A DNA stretch of 64,000 nt, taken from the NCBI GenBank assembly GCA_022824405.1, contig JAJDZZ010000015.1, positions 37,501 through 101,500 on the forward strand, in the 5' to 3' direction. Each line of letters begins with the position of its first letter. Position 1 is the first letter of the stretch. The position numbers and the translations under genes are program-made. This document shows, one piece after another, positions 540 through 56,534 of this stretch. This DNA comes from Opitutales bacterium (GTDB lineage: Bacteria; Verrucomicrobiota; Verrucomicrobiia; Opitutales; UBA2995). A model generated the notes under the pieces. The model saw nothing but the letters and a program-made list of their open reading frames with translations. It made no database searches and was not told where the DNA came from.

Positions 540-1261
540 GCTGGTGCCGACAATCGGCAGGCTACACACTTTTTTTCAACCGGGACGAAAGCAAAAGGCG
601 TAGCGAGGGGCTTCCCCCTCAACCCCATATCAGCGGTTCAGTGGCCTACGTTTGCCCACGGGACCCGGATGGGGGAGGGACCTGGCTTCTGGCCAATTCC
701 CACGGCCTCACCCTGGGTTTGTTGAATTATTATGAAGCCCAGGGGGGGTATCGCCCCAAAGCCCCGCTCTCGCGCGGGCGCCTCCCATTGGACTGCAGTA
801 CTTTCTGCAATCTGGATGAGGTGGAAAATTTCTTTACCTCGGTCGATCTGTCCCCATTCCCCTCCTTTCTTTTTTTGGGCATCGATCCGGCAGGGCGAAC
901 CGTGCTCATCAAATGGGCCGGAAAGTGGCGCCGTATTTCCCATCCCGGTTTTTCCCAGCTTCCCCTCACCACCTCTTCTTTCCAACCCGATGTTGTCGTG
1001 TCCGAGCGCAGAGCCAAATTCAGACGGCAAATTCCAGGCCTCGAATGTGCCCCGGAACGCCTGATCCGATACCACCGAAGTCACGATCCGGACCGGAGCG
1101 CATTTTCTCCGCTGATGACGCGGCCGGACGCCCGCACCGTCAGCCTCAGCCAAGTTACCGTGTCGAGAACAGAGACGCGGTTCACCTATCGGGAGAGGAG
1201 GGGTGATTTTCCCATATTGAGCGATCCGGTATCCGTCTCCATTCCCAGGAAAGCCCCATGA
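527..1261 (+). CDS. NRDE family (TANGO2-like) protein
   Basis: A 244-residue protein. The N-terminus begins MCTVSW and carries the family-defining N18-R19-D20-E21 motif after a hydrophobic strand. The Cys at position 2 is conserved in this family, which resembles N-terminal-nucleophile folds. TANGO2/NRDE proteins are linked to lipid or haem handling in eukaryotes, and bacterial roles are undefined. The ATG at 527 was chosen because the MCTV start is the canonical family start; the frame is open further upstream, but that part is out of keeping with the family. The gene overlaps the DinB-like gene by 13 bases and the fusion gene downstream by ATGA, so the three are probably one operon. Confidence 0.75.
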   Translation: MCTVSWCRQSAGYTLFFNRDESKRRSEGLPPQPHISGSVAYVCPRDPDGGGTWLLANSHGLTLGLLNYYEAQGGYRPKAPLSRGRLPLDCSTFCNLDEVENFFTSVDLSPFPSFLFLGIDPAGRTVLIKWAGKWRRISHPGFSQLPLTTSSFQPDVVVSERRAKFRRQIPGLECAPERLIRYHRSHDPDRSAFSPLMTRPDARTVSLSQVTVSRTETRFTYRERRGDFPILSDPVSVSIPRKAP

Positions 1262-3870
1262 TGGGCGCATCCCTCAAGCATTGGCTCATTTCCGGCAGGG
1301 GATTGCTGCTGATTTACCTGTTGGTTTTAGGGGCCAGTCACTTGGTCCGACGGGGACAGCCTGGAGAGGTGCCCTATATCGAAGGACAAGCCTTTCTCCA
1401 GGTTGAGGAAATGCGCGGAAAGATGCCTGCGGGTCGCTCCATCTCCATGGCTTACCTGGATTGGGTCCCTCCGGAAAATCCCGATGCGCCCGTCCTCGTT
1501 CTTCTGCATGGCAGTCCAATGGCTTCGGCCTCTCTCTTGTCCACGGCCCGCGCCTTGCAGGGCAACTTCCGTCTCATTATTCCGGACCTTCCCGGCTTCG
1601 GAGGTTCTACCTTGCGGGTGGAGGATTACTCCATCCTGGCCCACGCTTATTATCTCGACCAATTGTTGCGCCACCTCGGCGTGGAAAAATGCCATCTCGC
1701 CGGATACAGCATGGGCGGAGGGGTCGCATTGGAATATGCCCATGCCTTTCCGGCCCATTTGAAGTCTCTCCTTCTCATATCCTCCATCGGGGTGCAGGAA
1801 CTGGAACTACTGGGAGACTATACCATCAATCACGCCATCCATGCCTTGCAACTGGGCGCGCTGTGGTTCCTGCAGGAATGCATTCCCCACTTCGGTTGGA
1901 TGGACAACGCAATGCTCAGCGTTCCCTACGCCCGCAATTTCTTCGACACCGACCAACGGCCATTACGGGAGCACCTCATGGCCATCGAGGCACCCACTCT
2001 CATTCTCCACGCCGAGGACGACGGCCTGGTTCCGGTGGAGACGGCGCGGGAACACCACCGCATCGTACCGCATAGCGAACTGCAACTCCTGGAGGAGGGG
2101 CATTTGTTCATCATAACCCGGCCCGATATTACAGCCCCGCCCATCATCGACTTTGTCAACCGGGCCGAAAAGGGTCTGGCTCCCAGGAAAAGCCACGCCA
2201 GTCCCGAACGCATTGCGGCCTCCGTGGTCCCGTTCAATTTCGAACAAATCCAAGCCCGGGGCATCGGCATTGCCGTGGTGGGAATTTTGCTGGCCCTGGC
2301 CACCCTCATTTCGGAGGACCTCACCTGTATCGGAGCTGGGTTGCTGGCAGCCAAAGGGGTCATCGGGTTAATCCCGGCCACCTTGGCCTGCCTCATCGGT
2401 ATTTTCCTCGGCGATATCCTGCTCTACTTTGCCGGCAGGGTTTTGGGCCGGAGAGGGGTGCGAAAAGCGCCCTTGCGCTGGCTCCTTTCGGAAGCCGATT
2501 TGACCCGCAGCGCCCAGTGGTTCGAACGGCGAGGCGTGCTGCTCATCTTCCTGACGCGGTTTTTCCCAGGCACCCGTTTACCCACCTATTTCACGGCCGG
2601 TCTCCTTGGAGTGGGCATCCTGCGGTTTTCCTTTTTCTTCCTTTTGGCCGCCACTGCCTGGACTCCGCTCCTGGTGGGATTGAGCGCATTGCTGGGAGGA
2701 CAAATGCTGGCTTGGTTTGAAGTTTATCAGGATTACGCATTACTGGGGTTTATCGGGGTCGTCCTTACCCTTTTTCTAATTATCAAGGTCATGGTTCCTC
2801 TCCTCAGTCACAGGGGACGACGACTTTTCCTGGGAAAGTGGATCCGGTTTTCCCGCTGGGAGTACTGGCCGTTGTGGAAATTCTACCCCCCGGTGGTTCT
2901 CTATGTCATTTGGCTGGCCTGGAAACACCGCAATCCGGCCTGGTTCACCGCCACCAATCCGGGAATGCCCCTGGGCGGACTGGTGCTCGAATCCAAAAGC
3001 CGCATCCTGCAGGCCCTCCAATCCTCCGGCGAGGCCGTCGCCCCCTTTGCCCTGCTACCCAAGGAACTCGATCCCCAAGAAAAATTCCGGCGCTTCAAAA
3101 AACTCCAATTGCGAAGGGAATTCGATTATCCCGTTATCCTGAAGCCCGACGTGGGTGAACGCGGGGTGGGGGTAGCCATCCTGAAAACGGATCGGGATGC
3201 CCGGGCCTATTTCCTGAAGAGCCTCGACCACATCATCGTCCAGCAATACGTAAAAGGGTTGGAGTTCGGAATCTTTTACTACCGCTTTCCGGAAGAGGAG
3301 ACGGGGCATATTTATTCCATTACGGACAAGAGGTTTATCGCTGTGAGCGGAGACGGTGAAAAAACAGTGGAACAGCTCATCCTGGACGACCCCCGTGCGG
3401 TGGCCATGGCTCCGTTCTTCATAAAAAAGCACGCCGGCAGATTATTCGACGTCCTGTCCCCAAAAACTTTCCTGACGCTGGCGGAAATAGGCACCCACTC
3501 CCGGGGCTGTCTCTTCCTTGATGGAACCCGATTGGCGACTCCGGAACTTACCGCCGCCATCGACCGCATCTCCCAAGCCTACCCCGGTTTCTACTTCGGG
3601 CGATACGACGTCAGGGTTCCCTCGGTTCGACACCTACAGCGCGGGGAAGGCATCCGCGTCATCGAGCTCAACGGAATAACTTCGGAAGCTACCAATATCT
3701 ACGATCCTAAAAACAGTTTGTTCGAGGCTTACCGCATTTTATTCAGGCAATGGGACTTGGCATCTGAAATCGCCCGGCAAAACCGGAAAAGCGGGATCGA
3801 ACCCGCTCCCCTCCGGCATGTCATCCGTCAATGCATGGACTACAGGAAACACAAAAAGGTAGAGGTGTAG
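1258..3870 (+). CDS. Three-domain membrane fusion: alpha/beta hydrolase, DedA/VTT, ATP-grasp
   Basis: An 870-residue protein with three recognisable parts. Residues about 15-30 form a membrane anchor. Residues about 60-305 are an alpha/beta hydrolase with oxyanion HG at 84-85, nucleophile elbow GYSMGG (Ser151), an acid candidate in HAEDDG (254-255) and His282. Residues about 335-520 are a DedA/VTT (SNARE-associated Golgi) membrane domain with SEDLTCIGAGLL and the re-entrant-loop type motif FLTRFFPGTRLPTYFTAGLLG-like (431-451). Residues about 575-850 resemble an ATP-grasp ligase (PVILKPDVGERGVGV, a G-rich lid, and late RVIELNG). VTT proteins act as lipid scramblases or transporters, so a combined envelope lipid or amide role is plausible but inferred. 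It starts within the NRDE stop (ATGA). The substrate is unknown. Confidence 0.85.
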   Translation: MMGASLKHWLISGRGLLLIYLLVLGASHLVRRGQPGEVPYIEGQAFLQVEEMRGKMPAGRSISMAYLDWVPPENPDAPVLVLLHGSPMASASLLSTARALQGNFRLIIPDLPGFGGSTLRVEDYSILAHAYYLDQLLRHLGVEKCHLAGYSMGGGVALEYAHAFPAHLKSLLLISSIGVQELELLGDYTINHAIHALQLGALWFLQECIPHFGWMDNAMLSVPYARNFFDTDQRPLREHLMAIEAPTLILHAEDDGLVPVETAREHHRIVPHSELQLLEEGHLFIITRPDITAPPIIDFVNRAEKGLAPRKSHASPERIAASVVPFNFEQIQARGIGIAVVGILLALATLISEDLTCIGAGLLAAKGVIGLIPATLACLIGIFLGDILLYFAGRVLGRRGVRKAPLRWLLSEADLTRSAQWFERRGVLLIFLTRFFPGTRLPTYFTAGLLGVGILRFSFFFLLAATAWTPLLVGLSALLGGQMLAWFEVYQDYALLGFIGVVLTLFLIIKVMVPLLSHRGRRLFLGKWIRFSRWEYWPLWKFYPPVVLYVIWLAWKHRNPAWFTATNPGMPLGGLVLESKSRILQALQSSGEAVAPFALLPKELDPQEKFRRFKKLQLRREFDYPVILKPDVGERGVGVAILKTDRDARAYFLKSLDHIIVQQYVKGLEFGIFYYRFPEEETGHIYSITDKRFIAVSGDGEKTVEQLILDDPRAVAMAPFFIKKHAGRLFDVLSPKTFLTLAEIGTHSRGCLFLDGTRLATPELTAAIDRISQAYPGFYFGRYDVRVPSVRHLQRGEGIRVIELNGITSEATNIYDPKNSLFEAYRILFRQWDLASEIARQNRKSGIEPAPLRHVIRQCMDYRKHKKVEV

Positions 3871-3935: not shown

Positions 3936-5303
3936 ATGGGACAAACACGTCGACAATTTATAAAATCCACCGGGGCCGCGGCTGGAGTCCTATCATTTCC
4001 GTCTATTCTGTCGAACGCGGCAGCGGTTCCGAAGACCTCGGGAAAATTTAATATCCTCCACATCTGTTCGGACCAGCAGCATTGGCAGGCCCAGGGTAGG
4101 GTGGACTCATTTTTTCATACCCCCCATCAGGATGCGCTGACTGCGGAATCGACCGTTTTCCATAATGCCTTTTGTACCACCCCTCAATGCTCCCCCAGTC
4201 GCTCGTCGATGTTGACCGGTTTTTATCCGCACAAAACGGAGATGATGAACAATGCCAATGCCCTGGGAGGGACCGATCTCAAGCTGCCCACCATCGGCAG
4301 TCTCCTCCAGCAAGCCGGTTATACTACCGGATATTTCGGGAAGTGGCATCTGGGCAACCACCCCACCGCAAACGCGGGCTGGGACGAAGAAAATAAACGC
4401 GGGCCCGACTCCAAAACGACCGAGCGGGGTATCGAATTCCTGCAACGGCACGCTCGGGAAGATGCACCATTTGCCCTCTTCCTCATGTATGTGGATCCCC
4501 ACGACATTTACCATTACAAACCAGGGTCCAGCGAAGTTTCCATTGAGGACGCGCGCTTACCGGAATCCTGGAAAAAGCAGGATTTCAAATCCGTCCCCAA
4601 AGTGCATGAGGAATTCATGAGGCACAATCAGGGAGACTTTATCGTGGATGCCGACGAGGAAACCTGGAAGGGCTACCGCGATTTTTACCGTCAGAAAGTC
4701 AAACTTTACGACGACCACTTGGGCAGAGTGCTGGAAAAGCTGAAAGAGCTGGGCCTTTGGGACAATACCATAGTGGTAAATACCTCTGATCACGGGGACA
4801 TGGATACCTTTCACCGCCTGGTGTTCAAGGGGCCATTCATGTATGAGCACATGATGCGCATACCCCTCTCTATTCGCGTCCCGGGGGCGACCGGACCCCG
4901 CAATACGGATTATCATTGGGTCAACGTCGATACGGTTCCAACTTTATTGGAACTCGCCGGTACCCAGGCGCCTCAATGCCATGGCCAGTCTGTCGCCGGT
5001 CTGGTGAACGGAACGGGCATCGTCCCCGACCGCGATTACGTGATCGGCCAATACTACGGCAAACAAACTTGGGTAAACCCCATTCGCACCATCCGCACGC
5101 AGAACTGGAAATACAGCATCTATGCCGATTGGGGAGAAGAGCTGTACCACCTCAAAAATGATCCGGAGGAAATCCAAAATCTGGCTTCCCAGCCAAACTA
5201 CCGGGCTCGCAAACAGGCAATGCGATCCGTCCTGGATCAATGGATAAGGGAGCAGCAGGATCCGTTCTACACCCTTGCCACCACCAAACTGGATAGAAAA
5301 TAG
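3936..5303 (+). CDS. Tat-exported sulfatase (formylglycine type)
   Basis: A 455-residue family S1-type sulfatase. The N-terminus has a twin-arginine signal (TRRQFIK, then a hydrophobic alanine-rich stretch to about residue 30). The catalytic cysteine to be converted to formylglycine is C85 in C-S-P-S-R, followed by SSMLTGFYPHKT. A later NTSDHGD segment supplies metal ligands, and a GKWHLG signature also fits the family. It hydrolyses sulfate esters, probably on polysaccharides, in the periplasm or outside the cell. It needs an anaerobic or FGE-type maturase, which is not in this window. It stands alone between the fusion gene and the convergent dsbD. The substrate is not deducible. Confidence 0.9.
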   Translation: MGQTRRQFIKSTGAAAGVLSFPSILSNAAAVPKTSGKFNILHICSDQQHWQAQGRVDSFFHTPHQDALTAESTVFHNAFCTTPQCSPSRSSMLTGFYPHKTEMMNNANALGGTDLKLPTIGSLLQQAGYTTGYFGKWHLGNHPTANAGWDEENKRGPDSKTTERGIEFLQRHAREDAPFALFLMYVDPHDIYHYKPGSSEVSIEDARLPESWKKQDFKSVPKVHEEFMRHNQGDFIVDADEETWKGYRDFYRQKVKLYDDHLGRVLEKLKELGLWDNTIVVNTSDHGDMDTFHRLVFKGPFMYEHMMRIPLSIRVPGATGPRNTDYHWVNVDTVPTLLELAGTQAPQCHGQSVAGLVNGTGIVPDRDYVIGQYYGKQTWVNPIRTIRTQNWKYSIYADWGEELYHLKNDPEEIQNLASQPNYRARKQAMRSVLDQWIREQQDPFYTLATTKLDRK

Positions 5304-54511: not shown

Positions 54512-55894
54512 TTAGTCGACCCGACCTGAGCCTTCACTGTTCTTCAATCGGTTCAGTCGCACTTCTCCATCCTTGAACTCGGCCCATACCGTGTCCCCGG
54601 GCAGGATGGATTGCCTGGATACGATGGGGCGGCGCATGCCGTCTCGGACAATGGCAAAACCCCGATTGAGCACAGACCGGGGGCTGAGAGATCCCAAAAG
54701 CGACCGGGCCCGCTGGAGGTTTGATTTTTTCCCCGAGAGTTCCGCGGCCAGGGCGTTGTGCAACCGATGACCCATGGTTTGGGCGGTCAATCGGGCCCGA
54801 TGAATAAGGGGCAGGGGCTCCATTTTTTGAATTTCCCGGGAGACTTCGGATAACCGATGCCGTCTCTGCAAAATCCTCGAATTCACCGCCCCATTCAATC
54901 GGATTTCCAGGTCGTCCAAGCGCAGGTATCCCCGTTCGATTTTGTCGAGAGGCTCCACCCTTTGCAGTCTGCGGCCCAATCCATCCAGATGTTCCCCCCT
55001 GGATTGAAGCCCCTGAGACACCCAGCGGGCCAAGTCCTCTGCGGCCCTATGGCAGCGATCCCGCACCTCGCGGTAATGGGTGGAAATAATTTCGGCGGCG
55101 GCGGAAGGGGTCTCGGCCCGCAAGTCGGCCACAAAGTCGGAAAGCGTAAAATCGACCTCGTGACCCACCGCGGAAATGACCGGAATAGCGGATGCCGCCA
55201 GGGCCAGGACGACTCTTTCGTCGTTGAAACACCAAAGGTCTTCCATGCTGCCCCCACCACGGCCAACGACCAGCAGATCGAGTCCGGCCAAGGTTTGGGC
55301 GCGTTCAATCATGCGGACAATTTCTTCGGCCGATCCGCTTCCCTGAACCCTGGCCGGAAGAATGAGAATGCGTCCAACCCATTCCCGCCGTTTCAAGATC
55401 CGGATAAAATCCTGCACCGCCGCCCCGGTCGGGGAGGTCACAATTCCGATGGCTCGGGGAAACAGGGGGATAGGCCTTTTCCTCTGGGCGTCGAAGAGGC
55501 CTTGCTTCTGCAATTTGGCCTTCAACCGTTCGAATTCCTGCTGGAGCGTCCCGAGGCCATCGGGCGCCGCCAAGCGAATGATGAGTTGGTAATTGCCCCG
55601 CGGCTCGTAAACACTTACCTGGCCGAAAACGATTACCTGCAGGCCGTCCTTCAATTGGATGGTTTGCTTCAGCGCATCGCTTCGGAACAACACCGCCGAT
55701 ACTTGGCTATCGGCGTCTCTCAGGGAAAAATAAACGTGCCCGCTTTGCTGACGTCGGAAATTGGAAATTTCACCTCGGATCCAAACCCCTCCGATTACGG
55801 TCTCCAACAGATACTTTACCTCGCTGGTAAATTCGGAGACGGACTTGATCTCATCCGACGGAGGTATCGGGTAGTTTTGTCTTGGATTGTGCAT
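54512..55894 (-). CDS. xseA: Exodeoxyribonuclease VII large subunit
   Basis: About 460 residues. An N-terminal OB fold (VSEFTSEVKYLLETVIGGVW, FSLRDADSQVSAVLFRSD) and the catalytic core with LILPARVQG, DLLVVGRGGGSMEDLWCFND and AVGHEVDFTLSDFVAD are typical. It digests single-stranded DNA with XseB, which is not adjacent here. The ATG at 55894 gives MHNPRQN; a longer frame to 55951 is rejected. It overlaps the VTT gene by 44 bases. Confidence 0.95.
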   Translation of the reverse strand: MHNPRQNYPIPPSDEIKSVSEFTSEVKYLLETVIGGVWIRGEISNFRRQQSGHVYFSLRDADSQVSAVLFRSDALKQTIQLKDGLQVIVFGQVSVYEPRGNYQLIIRLAAPDGLGTLQQEFERLKAKLQKQGLFDAQRKRPIPLFPRAIGIVTSPTGAAVQDFIRILKRREWVGRILILPARVQGSGSAEEIVRMIERAQTLAGLDLLVVGRGGGSMEDLWCFNDERVVLALAASAIPVISAVGHEVDFTLSDFVADLRAETPSAAAEIISTHYREVRDRCHRAAEDLARWVSQGLQSRGEHLDGLGRRLQRVEPLDKIERGYLRLDDLEIRLNGAVNSRILQRRHRLSEVSREIQKMEPLPLIHRARLTAQTMGHRLHNALAAELSGKKSNLQRARSLLGSLSPRSVLNRGFAIVRDGMRRPIVSRQSILPGDTVWAEFKDGEVRLNRLKNSEGSGRVD

Positions 55895-56534
55895 AACGTT
55901 TGCGCAGCAGGGCAAAAACGATAAAGGCGATGGCCAAGACGGCCAGACCAATCAGGGCGGTTCCCATCTTTCCCGAGACGAAAGACTCGCCGAAAACGAC
56001 GAAACCGACGACGAAAAAGGTTTGCGAAATGACAGAATAAACGAGGTAGGGCCAGAAAGGGGCGCGGGCCAGTCCCAGCACGTAATTCTGAACCACCAAT
56101 GGAGTACCGGAAAAGCGAACCGCAACGATCCATTTCGACGCATCCTCCGGTTTGATCCTCGGTATGGAATAATTCCCCCAACGGAGCAGTCTCTCTAGGA
56201 ATCCGTGCAGCACCTTGCTGGACAACCAGTAGGCCAAGACCATATTGACCGCAACGGCAGCCAACGAAAACGGAATTCCCCAGGCCACTCCAAACCGGAT
56301 ACTGGCCACGATGAACAAAGGGGATATGGGAATTCCGGTCAGGGGCAGAACCGCCGTGGCAAGGAAGAAGAGATAAGCCGGCCAGGATTTAATTTCATCC
56401 ACCCAACCGGAAATCCAGGTCTTGATTTCATCGATACTCCAACCGCCCCACAAGACCCAGATGAGGAAGCCGACAACCCCCAAGAGGGAGGCCAACAGGA
56501 TGATTTTTCCCTTATGTAGCTTCAGCCATTCCAT
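55851..56534 (-). CDS. VTT-domain (TVP38/TMEM64, DedA-type) membrane protein
   Basis: A 227-residue membrane protein. The VTT core has LTGIPISPLFIVASIRFG, then VAVNMVLAYWLSSKVL, with a re-entrant loop RFSGTPLVVQNYVLGLA. VTT proteins act in lipid scrambling or transport; the exact role here is unknown. It overlaps the xseA start by 44 bases. The same domain occurs in the fusion protein at 1.3 kb. Confidence 0.85.
   Translation of the reverse strand: MEWLKLHKGKIILLASLLGVVGFLIWVLWGGWSIDEIKTWISGWVDEIKSWPAYLFFLATAVLPLTGIPISPLFIVASIRFGVAWGIPFSLAAVAVNMVLAYWLSSKVLHGFLERLLRWGNYSIPRIKPEDASKWIVAVRFSGTPLVVQNYVLGLARAPFWPYLVYSVISQTFFVVGFVVFGESFVSGKMGTALIGLAVLAIAFIVFALLRKRYAQSKTKLPDTSVG

Follow-up and report, generated by a model that had tools for sequence, protein, structure and literature searches.

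The window, a 64,000-nucleotide stretch from an Opitutales bacterium, opens with three overlapping genes on the forward strand. The first (9-539, 176 aa) encodes a DinB-like protein that falls below the Pfam cut-off (DinB_2, E=6.4e-4) and recurs beside the fusion gene described here, the second (527-1261, 244 aa) a protein of the NRDE/TANGO2 family with a Met-Cys-Thr start and an FNRDE motif, and the third (1258-3870) an 870-residue protein in which an α/β-hydrolase, a VTT membrane domain and an ATP-grasp domain are joined in a single uninterrupted reading frame. The NRDE start codon (ATG at 527) lies inside the DinB-like gene, whose TAA stop occupies 537-539, giving a 13-nucleotide overlap, while the NRDE stop codon overlaps the start of the fusion gene as ATGA (1258-1261). 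These overlaps (527-539 and 1258-1261) bear out the coupling of the fusion gene to the DinB-like and NRDE genes that had been proposed in the initial annotation. The sequence that precedes window position 1 is given as N, which hides the beginning of the operon. A sulfatase gene at 3936-5303 was rejected as an operon member because it is absent downstream of the fusion gene in a close relative (L033), and a phage or viral origin was rejected as well, with no match among phages or viral contigs.

Family profiles place the hydrolase at residues ~42-319, the VTT domain at ~335-515 and the ATP-grasp domain at ~517-857. The initial reading of a three-part protein in one frame holds, the frame being open and each part being matched by Pfam or by profile, and the limits it had assigned (335-520 for VTT and 575-850 for ATP-grasp) lie near those of the family profiles. 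The identical full-length domain order is present in two other assemblies (Opitutia/Opitutales MAGs, 87% and 62% identity) and the three-domain order is also seen in tens of further genomes; the fusion is therefore no assembly artefact. Structure predictions of the whole chain and of the ATP-grasp domain, based on the window protein together with two near relatives, gave pLDDT values of 36 and 39 and were too poor for a fold search.

The α/β-hydrolase domain (1489-2157, residues ~78-300) matches Abhydrolase_1 (E=2.7e-26 at 78-176) and Abhydrolase_6 (at 80-292), both over the curated Pfam cut-offs. Alignment shows an intact Ser-Asp-His triad in the window protein, formed by S151 (1708-1710), D255 (2020-2022) and H282 (2101-2103), which agrees with the Ser151/His282 pair picked out beforehand and supplies the acid residue. 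The hydrolase is an optional part of the module: it is absent in about a third of the 67 verrucomicrobial loci, and among the 47 hydrolase-bearing relatives the catalytic Ser is kept in 30 and replaced by Gly in 17. In Paracoccus the counterpart is encoded separately and is soluble, having neither a signal nor a membrane segment. Against the OlsI equivalog model (NF052614) the hydrolase reaches 30.2 bits, far from the cut-off of 385.

The VTT/DedA membrane domain (2248-2796, residues ~331-513) was delimited by Pfam, conservation and hydrophobic segments. It matches VTT_dom at residues 361-476 (E=2.1e-16, 61 bits, above the cut-off of 33.9), and E353, D354, D386, R434, P437 and R440 are conserved across 70 sequences, with the motif R-x-x-P-G-x-R; the score together with the conserved acidic and Arg residues assigns it to the DedA/VTT family. 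UptA is the nearest NCBIfam model, yet the match reaches 62.4 bits against an equivalog cut-off of 250. Like UptA and other DedA/VTT transporters, the protein has a VTT domain with conserved acidic and Arg residues, and it differs from them in that this domain is fused to enzymes. VTT proteins move lipids, and we infer that this one would mediate transbilayer lipid movement.

The ATP-grasp ligase domain (2815-3852, residues ~520-865, including its own hydrophobic lead-in, with a putative membrane-facing segment at 535-560) is defined by a profile match and by invariant residues, the Pfam matches over this region being only sub-threshold (Dala_Dala_lig_C, E=0.019; RimK, E=0.024). A profile of 14 relatives from two phyla detects the glutathione synthase GshF (E=3.5e-13) and several cyanophycin synthetases (best E=2.3e-10), in each case over ~200 residues, the match running from the Lys and glycine loop through a GDG-x-[ST]-x-x-x-L-I stretch to a C-terminal E-x-N. 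Ten residues are invariant in the alignment (K629, G633, G636, G638, Q662, E669, R782, D784, E803 and N805), of which K629 is encoded at 3142-3144, E803 at 3664-3666 and N805 at 3670-3672. The domain thus has the ATP Lys and glycine loop, the acidic hinge and the metal-binding D...E-x-N of an ATP-grasp carboxylate-amine ligase; a lack of ATP-binding residues, which the initial annotation had named as evidence against its reading, is not observed, ATP and metal residues being invariant in all 14 sequences. GshF/CphA-type ATP-grasp enzymes convert a carboxylate to an acyl phosphate and then couple it to an amine. The window protein has in common with CphA and GshF the ATP-grasp catalytic residues, the GDG-containing stretch and the C-terminal E-x-N, but its relatives are free-standing or VTT-fused, carry the hydrophobic lead-in and contain neither a Mur-ligase nor a γ-glutamylcysteine part. 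The cyanophycin synthetase model TIGR02068 reaches 26.4 bits against a cut-off of 850, with ~90 of 862 positions matched. Assignment as a D-Ala-D-Ala ligase was rejected (14.9 bits against 24 in Pfam; 12-20 against 243-489 in NCBIfam): superfamily and type of ATP/metal residues are shared, whereas the sequence past E-x-N differs and every Ddl cut-off is missed. The Ddl-type protein of this genome is encoded elsewhere, apart from the fusion gene. Some of the ATP-grasp relatives carry the annotation D-alanine--D-alanine ligase.

Both partner proteins show family features. The window DinB-like protein scores 20.6 bits with Pfam DinB against a cut-off of 24.8, which a relative (L059) exceeds at 27.0, and the His residues that are invariant in the DinB alignment would fit a metal site. 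The NRDE protein belongs to the NRDE/TANGO2 family by Pfam TANGO2 score (26.5 bits against 22.6), N-terminal Cys and NRDE motif. The Cys of its Met-Cys-Thr start is conserved in 46-47 of 47 members and therefore suggests an N-terminal nucleophile. The human family member, TANGO2, is a cause of disease. Human TANGO2 binds acyl-CoA (PMC11867700). Across 273 genomes of the order, the DinB-like and NRDE genes are found together in 46 and one alone in 3 and 2. They lie within 3 kb of the ATP-grasp gene and on the same strand in 41 of the 67 verrucomicrobial loci, and they occur as separate genes in Vibrio, Photobacterium and Salinivibrio; the recurrence of these neighbours, suggested earlier as a check, is thus seen both inside and outside the phylum.

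A protein search of 289 sampled genomes from the phylum (Verrucomicrobiota) found relatives in 28, and a profile search detected the ATP-grasp protein in 39 of 388 genomes from the phylum and in 78 of the 273 from the order. Neighbouring genes were detected by six-frame HMM search. The 67 verrucomicrobial loci comprise 42 with the hydrolase-VTT-ATP-grasp architecture, 18 with VTT-ATP-grasp, 6 with ATP-grasp alone and 1 with a variant of VTT-ATP-grasp. The three-domain order to which attention had been drawn therefore recurs widely, but as a common lineage fusion within one phylum and not as a one-off. In Proteobacteria, relatives of the ATP-grasp protein with 30-37% identity are encoded on plasmids and chromids: the protein is fused to VTT in Azospirillum, adjoins separate hydrolase and VTT genes in Paracoccus (PDEN_RS24485 in P. 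denitrificans PD1222), and stands in Salinivibrio in the annotated order VTT, "D-alanine--D-alanine ligase", DinB family, NRDE family. The parts are separate neighbouring genes in Vibrio and Photobacterium as well as in Salinivibrio and Paracoccus, and because such neighbourhoods and the fusion support each other, the hydrolase, VTT and ATP-grasp proteins probably work together. The conserved core consists of VTT, ATP-grasp, DinB and NRDE.

Clustering of the genes around the ATP-grasp loci brings out PlsC-type and GNAT acyltransferases, which NCBIfam models relate to the ornithine-lipid synthases OlsF (428 and 370 bits), OlsB (137-175 bits) and OlsA (149 bits); every one lies below its equivalog cut-off, so that they can be placed in a family but not assigned an amino acid. 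Ols-type genes (OlsF or OlsB/OlsA) are located ≤3 kb from ATP-grasp in 10 of the 67 verrucomicrobial loci. In Vibrio sp. THAF191d and Photobacterium sp. GJ3, VTT, ATP-grasp, DinB, NRDE, YHS and OlsF follow one another on one strand, and in Variovorax an OlsB-like gene comes directly after ATP-grasp. N-acyl- and O-acyltransferases of Ols type are thus part of the cluster in the ten verrucomicrobial loci, Vibrio and Photobacterium; they are absent from the window, and the complete OlsF-like gene of this genome (617 aa) is on contig C38. In genomes without ATP-grasp (L171-L175 and L183), DinB-NRDE is followed directly by OlsF, an independent tie to lipid synthesis. Of the 273 genomes of the order, 78 have ATP-grasp, and OlsB/OlsF accompanies it in 63 of them; among the 195 that lack ATP-grasp, 53 have OlsB/OlsF (odds ratio 11, kinship ignored). 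Counted by genus, the figures are 27 of 28 and 20 of 60, again with kinship ignored. The envelope-lipid connection put forward initially gains support from these nearby ornithine-lipid-type synthases. Exceptions exist at several levels: Ols genes were not found within 3 kb in any of the 42 three-domain loci, OlsB/OlsF was not detected in the eight genomes of genus g21, which have the ATP-grasp protein, and no Ols gene was found near ATP-grasp in Paracoccus, Azospirillum and Komagataeibacter, where the search covered the neighbourhood of the locus. Because of these exceptions we regard the lipid assignment as strong when the module is taken as a whole, and as weaker when any one member is considered by itself. 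In Vibrio cholerae the row of four genes VCA0649-VCA0646 ends with VCA0646, which a 2025 study shows to be a functional OlsF (PMC12186959); the text of that paper leaves VCA0647-VCA0649 undescribed, and the approximate length they cover would leave room for DinB, NRDE and YHS.

Gene neighbourhoods and sequence make it probable that the three-part protein is an enzyme, so far undescribed, which adds to and transports phosphorus-free lipids of the ornithine type. Ornithine lipids have one free carboxylate, and its amidation would therefore be the simplest fitting reaction. The ATP-grasp domain, at the inner face of the membrane, would most likely convert a carboxylate to an acyl phosphate and couple this to an amine. 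The leading candidate for its substrate is an ornithine-lipid-type acyloxyacyl aminolipid made by the OlsF of this genome; the free α-carboxylate of the lipid would form an amide with an amino acid or another amine. The VTT domain would carry the product or a precursor across the membrane, and the intact hydrolase could remove or transfer an acyl chain, with assistance from the NRDE protein, which may be acyl-binding or N-terminal-Cys hydrolase-like, and from the putatively metal-binding DinB protein. The hydrolase could also be an O-acyltransferase, as OlsI is, yet by score it is no OlsI. That the protein forms the fused core of a membrane-lipid module, with an ATP-dependent carboxylate-amine ligase and a flippase acting on ornithine-lipid-type aminolipids, is a reading to which we give slightly less than even confidence. 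More tentatively, the protein may represent a new family, whose membrane-bound ATP-grasp ligases amidate ornithine-lipid-type head groups, are physically joined to a VTT flippase and usually have DinB and NRDE proteins as partners.

The ligase might instead make a small peptide-like or other envelope compound that does not derive from ornithine lipid, for example a capped isoprenoid or a peptidoglycan precursor, the nearness of Ols genes then reflecting joint regulation in envelope or phosphate stress. The nearest VTT model, UptA, is an undecaprenyl-phosphate transporter, although the match is only 62 bits against 250, the nearest solved ATP-grasp relatives act on peptides, and several loci have no Ols gene nearby; we nevertheless consider this unlikely, as the DinB-NRDE-OlsF rows lacking ATP-grasp and the correlated presence of ATP-grasp and OlsB/OlsF both point to the lipid itself. 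A fourth aminolipid route, in which ATP-grasp would form an N-acyl amino acid out of a fatty acid and an amino acid, the hydrolase would O-acylate it and VTT would flip the product in place of OlsF, has a precedent in the ATP-dependent synthesis of ornithine lipid by OlsH and the α/β-hydrolase OlsI (PMC12493201). Either VTT-ATP-grasp or OlsF follows DinB-NRDE, and g21 has the fusion without OlsB/OlsF, both as expected of a replacement; the route is improbable even so, since OlsF/OlsB shares a gene row with ATP-grasp in Vibrio, Photobacterium and ten verrucomicrobial loci and occurs in all but one of the 28 genera having ATP-grasp, the hydrolase Ser is Gly in g21 itself (L054 and L055), and the similarity to OlsI is slight (30 bits against 385). 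The original proposal, a single enzyme that cuts an envelope lipid with its hydrolase, translocates it by VTT and rejoins it by means of ATP-grasp, draws on the intact domains seen here and on their fusion in 42 of 67 loci, but is very unlikely given a hydrolase that is missing from about a third of the loci, has lost its Ser in 17 of 47 relatives and is separate and soluble in Paracoccus.

The preferred reading, a ligase and flippase for ornithine-lipid-type aminolipids, can be set beside several described systems. MprF combines a lysyl-phosphatidylglycerol synthase and a flippase in one polypeptide and uses aminoacyl-tRNA and phosphatidylglycerol; its synthase-flippase logic is the same, its flippase fold is unrelated, and the likeness is one of analogy only. 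With OlsF, OlsB/OlsA and the modifying enzymes, the ATP-grasp module has gene rows and co-occurrence in common, and no ATP-grasp or VTT protein was found among the described ornithine-lipid enzymes in open-access PMC text. The OlsH/OlsI route of planctomycetes (PMC12493201) resembles the module in ATP-dependent amide formation and in an α/β-hydrolase O-acyltransferase, but OlsH is GH3-like and has no ATP-grasp, and the route is without VTT. No paper joining ATP-grasp with DedA or ornithine lipid, or DinB, NRDE or YHS with ornithine lipid, was found in open-access PMC text, nor any prior account of the three-domain order, in keeping with the initial suggestion of a candidate undescribed pathway. 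Parts of each kind are known already; what is undescribed, as far as the search reached, is the way they come together in one module linked to ornithine lipids.

Taurine-ornithine lipid was described in 1976, and we know of no established mechanism by which ornithine-type lipids cross the inner membrane. The open-access literature searched names neither a gene for the amidation of taurine-ornithine lipid nor an ornithine-lipid flippase. About half of sequenced bacterial species are estimated to be able to make ornithine-type lipids, and taurine-ornithine lipid is among the known aminolipids (PMC12493201); links have been drawn between ornithine-type lipids and both phosphate shortage and tolerance of polymyxin (PMC12186959). 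The cluster of ATP-grasp, VTT, DinB and NRDE beside Ols synthases opens questions of lipid transport and amidation to genetics, and the module may supply a bacterial context for the TANGO2 family. If the proposed function is correct, the ATP-grasp ligase family would offer a candidate gene for the taurine-ornithine lipids of acetic acid bacteria.

Directly 3' of the fusion gene, on the same strand, lies a sulfatase gene (window 3936-5303, + strand) whose product shows a weak match to a TAT signal; at L033, the locus of a close relative that bears the fusion gene, the position following that gene was checked and the sulfatase was not found there. Elsewhere in the window, positions 55851-56534 (- strand) encode a second, stand-alone VTT/DedA protein of 227 aa, which scores 41.8 bits to the VTT family. 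The source genome additionally carries on contig C31 (locus L072, 985-3366) a 793-aa frame consisting of a tandem pair of D-Ala-D-Ala-ligase-like halves, the first of which, as judged by eye, is missing the usual E-x-N metal motif.

Across the loci examined, a YHS-domain protein of ~150 aa recurs in the gene cluster (L045, L047, L049, L052, L059, L069, L126, L130, L166). The ATP-grasp gene is split over several frames at L061 (genome G224), L046 (G074) and L057 (G121), and is therefore decayed or mis-assembled at those loci. Tight DinB-NRDE-OlsF rows are present at L171, L172, L173, L174, L175 and L183, in genomes that lack this ATP-grasp gene; the lipid cluster thus has a second, distinct version.
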